Assembly: GCF_900143675.1 (NCBI RefSeq)
Contig: NZ_FRFC01000002.1
Span: forward strand, 1 to 40,396
Direction of reading: 5' to 3'
Source of the DNA: Candidatus Nitrosotalea sinensis
Lineage (GTDB): Archaea > Thermoproteota > Nitrososphaeria > Nitrososphaerales > Nitrosopumilaceae
DNA: 40,396 nucleotides
Below the pieces are notes generated by a model, which was not told the DNA's origin, did no database searches, and saw only the letters and a program-made list of their open reading frames with translations. This document shows positions 6,942 through 10,036 of this stretch, piece after piece; within the stretch, counting starts at the first letter, position 1; the number at the start of each line of letters is the position of its first letter. Position numbers and translations under genes: made by a program.

Positions 6942-8609
6942 TTATAGTTTAACACTTGACAAGCGTGGATTTATTCTGATGAACAAGATTCCGAGTGTAA
7001 TTACAATTGCCATTATCAACAGAGAACCTAGTGGGAATTCAGGTATTGCAGTACTTACAGTCACAGTTCCAGACAACCATGGACTTGGCTGGTCAAAGTA
7101 ACTGTATGAGCCAGTACTGTTGAAAATATATGAGAAGGTTTGACCAGGTTGTATCAATCCACTGTCGAATTTTCCGTCAGGACCTGCTTGTGCAGAGCCA
7201 CTGGTTATAGTATGAGGTTTATCATCATTATTTGTCCAGGTAATTGTAGTTCCTGGCATAATTGATACATCTTTTTGATCATATGTTATTCCGTTGCTGT
7301 CAGTTGATCCTTTTGGAATACTTACTGATATTTTCATTGGCATTGACATGTTACTGCTAGTGTTATTCATTGGAGTGACTGTTGTAGAATTAGTCGTTGT
7401 AGAATTGGTCATGGTAGAGTTTGTCATAGTATTATTTTGAGTAGTTTGATTTTGTTGTCCAGTTGTACTAACATCAAAACCGCTGAATGGGTCTTGTGTC
7501 TTTATATCAAATTTTACAATGCCTGACAAAGTAGGGTCAGGAGTAGTTCCCTCTGCACCAATACCAAGCATTGCGATTAGTACATGAGATGTAGGAGTAG
7601 TTCCTTTCAATATTGTGGTAACATCATCAGTACCAACAGGTGCAAATAGAGATGAGCGTCCCTTACTTTGAGCTATTGAAGATATTTGTTTTCCTTGATC
7701 ATCTACGGTAAAGATATCATACTGAGTATTGCTATAGGTTTGTGACGGATCAGAATTCTTTTCAAACCATATTCTGTATTCTACAGGACATCCATTATGA
7801 GGATTAGATGGACTGTATCTATATTCTACAATCATAGAGTTTGAATCAGTTGTAACTGAATCATGTACAGAGTCTTGTTCCATGTTAGGAGTATCACATT
7901 GAGGACTGTAACCTTTATGAATTGTTGATGACACATCCAAAAAGCTAGGCTCAGTTGGACTGTTTCCCATTTGTAATAATTCCAAAGTATAATCAGGCGG
8001 TGGCACTCCACTTGTAACATCTACATAGACAATTGCTTTTACAGGGAACGGTACACTGGAATCTATCCAAATTTTATTGTCCACACCCTTGTGCCAGCCC
8101 AGAACATATGTATCAAAAGTTCCTGCTCCTACTGTAACTTTTTCATGATCTACCGGACCTACAGACTGTCCCCCTACAGAACCAGTTCTTCCCCATGCTG
8201 GGACATCAAAGGTTTTTGGAGTATCTTTTGTTGCAAAAGAATCAAGCCAAGATACGGTACTTCTGTAAACTCCCGTATAATCAGAAATATTAGGATCAAA
8301 GGATGTAGGATCAGGAGTAATCTTGCCAATTGTCATGATTCCTTTTTGTGTGTTAGACCCATCAACTGCAACAAATACTACATTCCAGCCACTTCCATCA
8401 CTGGTTTCATTTTTTATCCAAAAGTTCATTTGAAGAGGGGCGCAGTTATGCCAGTCTGTCCAGCATACATTATAACTAAAATAATCTCCTTGCTTTAGGC
8501 CTTTTCCAGGATACCAAGAATCAGTAGATGATGTAGCGTGTACAGATTGAAATGCAACAGGTGATATCAGTAATAATGCAAAGATTGCAAATAAGGAGTA
8601 TTTTTGCAT
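6942..8609 (-). CDS. Secreted surface protein with degenerate cupredoxin domain and PEF-type sorting tail
   Basis: 555 aa. A signal peptide spans residues 1-25 (ending SVHA). A first extracellular domain (26-215) contains the NKIWIDSSVPFPVK segment shared with the downstream gene. A middle beta-rich domain (220-380) is followed by a Thr/Asn-rich linker with NSTMTNSTTTNSTT repeats (about 390-420). A plastocyanin/azurin-like domain (about 427-520) follows. The tail has IPEFPLGSLL, a hydrophobic helix and a short basic end, the layout of the archaeal PEF/PEFG-CTERM signal used by archaeosortases. In the cupredoxin the first Cu-ligand His is present (KPHTITSG), but the usual Cys-His-Met loop is YFDQPSPWLSG, so three ligands are missing. 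A TATA-like TTTAACTAG lies about 30 nt before the ATG. Confidence 0.85.
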   Translation of the reverse strand: MQKYSLFAIFALLLISPVAFQSVHATSSTDSWYPGKGLKQGDYFSYNVCWTDWHNCAPLQMNFWIKNETSDGSGWNVVFVAVDGSNTQKGIMTIGKITPDPTSFDPNISDYTGVYRSTVSWLDSFATKDTPKTFDVPAWGRTGSVGGQSVGPVDHEKVTVGAGTFDTYVLGWHKGVDNKIWIDSSVPFPVKAIVYVDVTSGVPPPDYTLELLQMGNSPTEPSFLDVSSTIHKGYSPQCDTPNMEQDSVHDSVTTDSNSMIVEYRYSPSNPHNGCPVEYRIWFEKNSDPSQTYSNTQYDIFTVDDQGKQISSIAQSKGRSSLFAPVGTDDVTTILKGTTPTSHVLIAMLGIGAEGTTPDPTLSGIVKFDIKTQDPFSGFDVSTTGQQNQTTQNNTMTNSTMTNSTTTNSTTVTPMNNTSSNMSMPMKISVSIPKGSTDSNGITYDQKDVSIMPGTTITWTNNDDKPHTITSGSAQAGPDGKFDSGLIQPGQTFSYIFNSTGSYSYFDQPSPWLSGTVTVSTAIPEFPLGSLLIMAIVITLGILFIRINPRLSSVKL

Positions 8610-8682: not shown

Positions 8683-8853
8683 ATGTGTGAATGTGAAAAA
8701 GTCCACATGTATGAAGTAGATTTCAAACTTGATGGAATGGTAGTTGTTCCAACACACAAGAATTGTGGTGATGCCCTCAATGAAAAACAGGTAGACAAGT
8801 TCCAAAAAGAACTAGTCAAAACATGGGGTATAAGAGACGAAAACGAAAAGTAG
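8683..8853 (+). CDS. Small Cys-containing protein, 56 aa
   Basis: An ATG-to-TAG frame of 56 codons encodes a protein starting MCECEKVHMYEVDFKLDG and ending KELVKTWGIRDENEK. It has CxC at residues 2-4, His8, and a later HKNCGD (Cys32). A TATA-like AATATA lies about 25 nt before the ATG, matching the leaderless pattern of neighbouring genes. The composition (charged, amphipathic C-terminal helix) looks like a folded mini-protein and not chance. It converges on the Cys-rich gene at 8893-9033. The function is unknown; metal binding through CxC/His is possible. Confidence 0.65.
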   Translation: MCECEKVHMYEVDFKLDGMVVVPTHKNCGDALNEKQVDKFQKELVKTWGIRDENEK

Positions 8854-8870
8854 GCTTTTAAAAAAGAAAG

Positions 8871-8890
8871 AAAAAAAGGTTCTAAAACCT
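8871..8890 (-). terminator. Hairpin plus T-run terminator of the metallothionein-like gene
   Basis: Read on the minus strand, AGGTT-TTAG-AACCT forms a 5-bp stem with a 4-nt loop and runs straight into seven T residues. It begins 3 nt after the TGA of the Cys-rich gene. On the plus strand the same A-rich tract follows the 56-aa gene, but there it lacks the T-run. Confidence 0.55.
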
Positions 8891-8892
8891 AA

Positions 8893-9033
8893 TCAGAATG
8901 AAGCTACGTGATCTTTGCAAACTGATGCTTTGCAAGTGCAATTACCATCACAAAGACATGAGCCCTGCATTTCACAGTCGCATTCTGTGCTATTTTCAGC
9001 GGATGCTTCGCATCCACATGCTGCATCGGTCAT
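8893..9033 (-). CDS. Metallothionein-like Cys-rich mini-protein, 46 aa
   Basis: A complete ATG-to-TGA frame encodes 46 residues with nine cysteines, eight of them in CxC pairs: C6/C8, C18/C20, C26/C28, C32/C34, plus C39 and one His (H42). The core reads CEMQGSCLCDGNCTCK. There are no aromatics except the final Phe. CxC spacing, small size and low aromatic content are hallmarks of metallothioneins, which chelate Zn, Cu or Cd by thiolate clusters. The gene has its own promoter (TTTTAAAA about 23 nt upstream), a perfect CCCTGCAGGG dyad between TATA and start, and a hairpin/T-run terminator. Assignment to a known family needs a profile search; the metal is unknown. Confidence 0.75.
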   Translation of the reverse strand: MTDAACGCEASAENSTECDCEMQGSCLCDGNCTCKASVCKDHVASF

Positions 9034-9045
9034 ACTTGGGAGATC

Positions 9046-9063
9046 CCCTGCAGGGTTTTAAAA
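9046..9063 (-). promoter_or_regulatory. TATA box with overlapping-downstream palindromic operator
   Basis: On the minus strand, TTTTAAAA (9063-9056) is followed directly by the perfect 10-bp dyad CCCTGCAGGG (9055-9046). The ATG of the Cys-rich gene is at 9033, so transcription would start at or just before it. A GC-rich dyad between TATA and start in an AT-rich genome is a classic position for an archaeal repressor site, possibly a metal sensor. The repressor itself is not identified. Confidence 0.55.
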
Positions 9064-9079
9064 GTTATCGAATTATGGC

Positions 9080-9958
9080 CTAGTTTTTTAGATCTCCAAA
9101 TATTTCAGTTACAGACTGCAACACTGTTACTGCTTGACTGTCTATAACCATTGGATCATTTTCAATATCCATCCCTGTTTTTAGTACATGAATAAACTCA
9201 GGGTTTTTGTGGATTCGGTTTTGAATTTTAAGTACATTTTGCCTGTTTACATATCCAAGATAAAAATAACAATCAGATAGAAGAGAGTTCTTCGCCAGAT
9301 AATCATATTTTTTCTTCACAATACCAGAATTACCATTGTTTTCTATCATATCTGAAAATCCTACAGTAGATTTGGCCATTCTTGAAAGAAGTGATGTAGT
9401 GGATCTTTCAATACCAAGAATATTATGAATTATTGAGAGTTTTTGATTTACTTGATCTTTTTTCATATTTCTTAATGAATCAAGCATATGAGTAGGACTA
9501 GGTCTTTGCATATTGAAACAGAATATGGCATCTGCGAGAGAATAAGAGGCACATTTTATCCATACACCTGCAAACGGATCCTTTAATTTAGCAAAGTCTC
9601 TAGATTTATTGGCAAAGATTCCTGCATCAACAAGACAGCTTCTTGCATGTGAAATTGCAATCTGCTTTCTTTTGTCTTTTATTTTAGATAGAAACATCCT
9701 AAGTTTCCATTCATCATCATTTATGATGCTTAAATTCTGCAACTGATGTAATGTGTCACTTTCAACAGTATCAAAAGAACAATGATGTACCTTGACATAT
9801 TCATCATCCACATTATGAATTGATTCACCAGATTTTCCATCCATTACTGTTATGTTAAATTCACAGCATTCGTAATTAGTTCCATCATTTCTACACCCTC
9901 CTAGACCCACAGGAAAATTTGAAAGTCCCATAGTGTCAGAAATTTGTTTCAAATCCAT
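9080..9958 (-). CDS. Conserved hypothetical protein, ~292 aa
   Basis: No family recognised. I chose ATG 9958 (MDLKQISDTMGLSNFPVGLGG) because the TATA-like TTTATAGC lies about 25 nt upstream; an in-frame TTG at 9994 adds 12 residues. The N-terminal part has a Cys cluster (GCRNDGTNYECCEF), followed by a mostly helical region with charged stretches (KIKDKRKQIAISHARSCL). It is soluble, without signal or membrane segments. The gene stands alone, between the metallothionein-like gene and tRNA-Glu. Normal codon use argues for a real gene, and the Cys residues could bind metal; that is speculation. Confidence 0.7.
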   Translation of the reverse strand: MDLKQISDTMGLSNFPVGLGGCRNDGTNYECCEFNITVMDGKSGESIHNVDDEYVKVHHCSFDTVESDTLHQLQNLSIINDDEWKLRMFLSKIKDKRKQIAISHARSCLVDAGIFANKSRDFAKLKDPFAGVWIKCASYSLADAIFCFNMQRPSPTHMLDSLRNMKKDQVNQKLSIIHNILGIERSTTSLLSRMAKSTVGFSDMIENNGNSGIVKKKYDYLAKNSLLSDCYFYLGYVNRQNVLKIQNRIHKNPEFIHVLKTGMDIENDPMVIDSQAVTVLQSVTEIFGDLKN

Positions 9959-10036
9959 GATGAATGGATAAGACAATTTGCTATAAACTGACAAAGCTGT
10001 TAAAATTTACAAATTTATTCAAAGCCAAAACGTTCC

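Follow-up and report, generated by a model that had tools for sequence, protein, structure and literature searches.

A metallothionein-like protein of 46 residues that is nearly universal in the Nitrosopumilaceae and a candidate for copper storage

Does a minus-strand reading frame for only 46 amino acids (aa) in Candidatus Nitrosotalea sinensis, an ammonia-oxidising archaeon (AOA) of the family Nitrosopumilaceae, encode a genuine protein, and if so, what could this protein do? The frame is located in a stretch of 40,396 nucleotides, which was analysed as a whole and is called the window here.

8893-9033, minus strand: metallothionein-like gene, 46 aa with nine invariant Cys (family conservation, dN/dS, frame openness)

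The translation, MTDAACGCEASAENSTECDCEMQGSCLCDGNCTCKASVCKDHVASF, bears out the preliminary description of a 46-aa frame with nine Cys in CxC pairs, the exact arrangement being four CxC motifs and one single Cys. A Cys content of 20% (9/46), four CxC motifs and one Phe fit the structural class of metallothioneins, i.e. short chains with about 15-30% Cys, CxC motifs and few aromatic residues. The strict Cys conservation of this class was found as well, both in the standalone protein and in a fused form. Standalone members lack a signal peptide. A count of open segments of 30-90 aa that contain nine or more Cys and four or more CxC motifs gave one in the window and none among 41,598 segments from 60 first-order Markov windows.

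In an alignment of 26 sequences from diverse genera, comprising both forms, the nine Cys and D19 are invariant, while most other positions vary. Besides D19, Q23, G7 and the start MSDAACGC are conserved. Across 29 close relatives dN/dS has a median of 0.20 and third codon positions are the most variable; only frame 0 is open in all 29, and the other five frames are not kept open. The sequence evidence thus confirms that the frame is a real gene.

The frame with its Cys pattern is present in 228 of 250 Nitrosopumilaceae genomes, with all 22 genera represented; of 131 good assemblies, 127 carry it. When 400 genomes of the class were searched with a profile, 22 of 82 genera gave matches. Among the matches listed all were Nitrosopumilaceae, and the remaining 60 genera of the sample yielded none. 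Nearly all of the 80 best loci from a scan of named genomes carry the label Nitrosopumilaceae as well. One locus bears the label Alphaproteobacteria and another the label Nitrososphaeraceae, in both cases probably through an error of binning or labelling. A contig in an Alphaproteobacteria MAG (L142) bears the archaeal fused gene, probably owing to a binning error. Carriage by viruses was considered and rejected, since a scan of viral contigs yielded no relative. The preliminary description had made its case depend on conservation of the frame and its Cys pattern in relatives, and this was clearly found: the frame is near-universal, its Cys residues are invariant and it is under purifying selection.

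The same description had assigned complete control elements to the gene. These are located as follows.

9056-9063, minus strand: TATA box TTTTAAAA, centred about 26 nt before the ATG, with the same spacing in 56 of 56 distinct loci
9046-9055, no strand assigned: dyad CCCTGCAGGG between TATA box and start, a perfect palindrome here, not conserved as such
8860-8890, minus strand: terminator with a 5-bp hairpin (8877-8890; fold -3.1 kcal/mol) and a T-tract, the latter found downstream of most relatives

A [CT]TTAAA box is centred 25-27 nt upstream of the ATG in every one of the distinct loci, and a conserved island extends from about -40 to -1. In archaeal promoters this is the spacing expected for a transcription start at the ATG. 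Consequently, judged from promoter geometry, the transcript is probably leaderless. All four elements, i.e. TATA box, dyad, hairpin and T-run, were found where they had been described, but the importance of the dyad had been overstated. Only two of the 29 close relatives, this genome and one other, have it in perfect form; elsewhere the position reads CCCTGTGTGGG, CCCTGTAGGAG or similar, and what is conserved is the TATA box followed by CCCTG. It had been suggested that the dyad be sought upstream of other metal genes. However, CCCTGCAGGG is a single copy in the 1.6-Mb genome, and the TATA-CCCTG box has one exact site genome-wide. Since the perfect form is neither conserved nor repeated, the dyad is weak as an operator; a regulon was rejected in view of the single sites, and the uniqueness of the promoter motif provides no tie to a copper regulon. 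Hairpin and T-run are both present, but only the T-tract is the conserved part. The hairpin is weak and is kept only among close relatives.

The genomic setting is usually similar across the family: a convergent 56-aa gene on one side, a 304-aa gene on the other and a secreted protein nearby.

8683-8853, plus strand: convergent 56-aa neighbour with conserved MCxCxKxH and THKNCG, syntenic with the metallothionein-like gene
9080-9994, minus strand: upstream 304-aa gene, syntenic across the family, without a Pfam match
6942-8609, minus strand: secreted 555-aa protein with a plastocyanin-type domain and a PEF sorting tail, its N-terminal part syntenic across the family

The 56-aa neighbour matches no family model. 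Its conserved Cys and His residues (MCxCxKxH, THKNCG) may form a metal site. Since this gene also occurs in other AOA families, including Nitrososphaeraceae, it is probably the older of the two, and the metallothionein-like gene arrived beside it later. Outside the genus, the cupredoxin domain of the 555-aa protein is not general; relatives there have only the N-terminal part. Clear copper-homeostasis genes were not found among the conserved neighbours.

How does this family relate to known metallothioneins? No model recognised it in Pfam and NCBIfam scans. The prokaryotic metallothionein profile PF02069 gave no match at E<=1 among 26 members, and the eukaryotic/vertebrate profile PF00131 matched one of the 26 at E=0.058, short of the cut-off. 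The nearest solved analogue is the beta domain of a fish metallothionein (PDB 1m0j, MT_nc), at a non-significant E of 5.5. Vertebrate beta domains (1m0j, PF00131) share with the archaeal family six Cys arranged as CxC-5-CxC-3-CxC; they differ in the first and last spacers, and the archaeal protein consists of a single domain. Most simply, the likeness in spacing to the fish domain is convergent. A second, different metallothionein-like protein, MANCGCGAQHKSHCKCETTGKCDCGSNCTCVDCRDPRHGKHR, is present in two copies in one Nitrosotalea genome (G212; L187, L189, L191), and its Cys spacing is nearer still to that of vertebrate beta domains than the spacing of the main family. This genome also encodes a Csp, and the main family is represented in it by additional copies (L181, L185). 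SmtA/BmtA proteins (PF02069) are also small, Cys-rich and cytoplasmic, but the archaeal family lacks a conserved His and does not match their profile. The copper metallothionein MymT of mycobacteria was discovered as a small ORF that had not been annotated (PMC7558416). Compared by description only, MymT is short and Cys-rich like the archaeal protein and belongs to a different lineage. We know of no membrane-fused form of MymT.

Such a fused form does exist in the archaeal family. Many genomes encode a protein of some 450-490 aa whose C-terminal tail is a second copy of the domain, with an identity of about 55-79%. This form was seen in several genera, including Nitrosopumilus and Nitrosarchaeum.

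L116:2774-4135, L038:178-1635 and L060:1504-2652: loci of the fused form and its membrane protein family

The fused protein is modelled with a signal-type helix at its N-terminus and a confident ectodomain; a single transmembrane helix is predicted at 317-344 and is followed by basic residues. From this we infer that the metallothionein-like tail would lie on the cytoplasmic face of the membrane. The identity of the membrane protein was not revealed by Pfam, by NCBIfam (no useful match) or by sequence comparison with the PDB (no significant match), and the ectodomain model gave no significant fold match in the PDB. The Nitrosotalea orthologue has no tail and is located beside the same cofD-like gene. 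Tail-less orthologues end in GSMPKGWKP (several other genera) or RKHWADKFDE. Genera g1, g14, g16 and g18 showed a tail-less membrane protein and, of the two forms of the domain, the standalone one alone. On a tree of 42 columns, too few for a detailed history, the labels standalone and fused require 3 changes. The tree is compatible with the standalone form being the older one. As an architecture, a membrane protein with a metallothionein domain attached would be unusual.

Which metal could be bound? Copper is the strongest metal demand in these archaea (PMC13003922), and 13 plastocyanin-type matches reflect the copper dependence of the Nitrosotalea genome. In the literature covered, the cytoplasmic copper store Csp is reported only for the sister group Nitrososphaeraceae (PMC7554672, PMC7785015); it responds to copper in N. 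viennensis (PMC7785015). Csp shares the role proposed here, the storage of Cu(I) in the cytoplasm of an oxidiser that depends on copper, but it exceeds 100 aa and folds into a four-helix bundle whose helices are rich in Cys, unlike the 46-aa protein. In this Nitrosotalea genome no match to Csp (PF03860) was found. In a sample of 300 genomes Csp is present in 18 Nitrososphaeraceae versus 4 Nitrosopumilaceae, in agreement with its reported gain by the Nitrososphaerales ancestor (PMC7554672). The four Nitrosopumilaceae genomes with these sporadic Csp genes are G212, G211, G050 and G137. Nearly all Nitrosopumilaceae have the metallothionein-like protein, whereas Csp is found mostly in the sister group. 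This contrast is a correlation, and a partial one, since even the group typical of Csp does not have it throughout. Both the contrast and the fused form go beyond the preliminary description.

The metallothionein-like nature proposed there is supported by size, Cys content, CxC pattern and spacing; on these grounds a metal-thiolate protein is far more likely than any other identity. Copper is favoured as the cargo because of the plastocyanin-type matches and the lineage contrast with Csp. We infer metal binding, copper preference and a role in buffering or storage, and give a probability of about 0.6 to a cytoplasmic metallothionein that mostly buffers or stores Cu(I), is made from a short leaderless transcript and has a membrane-tethered form in several genera. 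Several metal ions would be bound in a cysteine-thiolate cluster of the cytoplasmic protein. The likeliest cargo, Cu(I), would be buffered and stored for copper-dependent proteins of ammonia oxidation and electron transfer, and free Cu(I) would be held low. As the terminal part of a membrane protein with one span, the domain would provide the second, tethered form at the cytoplasmic face.

It is rather unlikely, though worth consideration, that the protein serves not copper but Zn(II)/Cd(II) or d10 metals in general, as a metal buffer or a thiol redox buffer. Nine Cys correspond to the M(II)3-Cys9 content of a cluster in vertebrate beta domains, the Cys spacing overlaps with that of the fish domain and most metallothioneins bind several metals; against this stand the dominant copper demand and the lack of a conserved His, which SmtA-type zinc metallothioneins have. 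Less probable still is a small module for protein interaction or regulation that holds Zn or Fe-S at one or two structural sites and whose fused copy would recruit partners to the membrane protein. The fusion in several genera and the conserved D19, Q23, G7 and MSDAACGC start, suggestive of some fixed structure, fit such a module. However, the chain is small with few aromatics, and nine Cys in a pattern of four CxC motifs without CxxC knuckles or His are, to our knowledge, no zinc-finger or Fe-S ligand pattern. A spurious frame, for which shortness and the failure of family models could be cited, has practically no probability left: conservation, dN/dS, the open frame, invariant Cys, promoter spacing and the Markov windows refute it.

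Returning to the Cu(I)-buffering metallothionein, we tentatively propose, as a possibility short of an even chance, that it represents an archaeal metallothionein family which extends through the whole lineage and has no sequence relationship to known ones. This family would stand in for Csp in storing the copper of Nitrosopumilaceae, and a duplication would have given rise to its membrane-tethered form, which may deliver Cu(I) to the membrane with its copper enzymes or take it up from there. A search for archaeal or AOA metallothioneins in mostly open-access literature found nothing relevant and no report of this family, although an earlier mention is possible.

Nitrosopumilaceae are among the most abundant cells of the ocean, and their metabolism relies on copper enzymes. 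The metallothionein-like family is present in almost all members of this abundant archaeal group, and no Pfam or NCBIfam model recognises it. A near-universal, very short gene is a candidate for the cytoplasmic copper store of Nitrosopumilaceae, where the published Csp store concerns the sister group.
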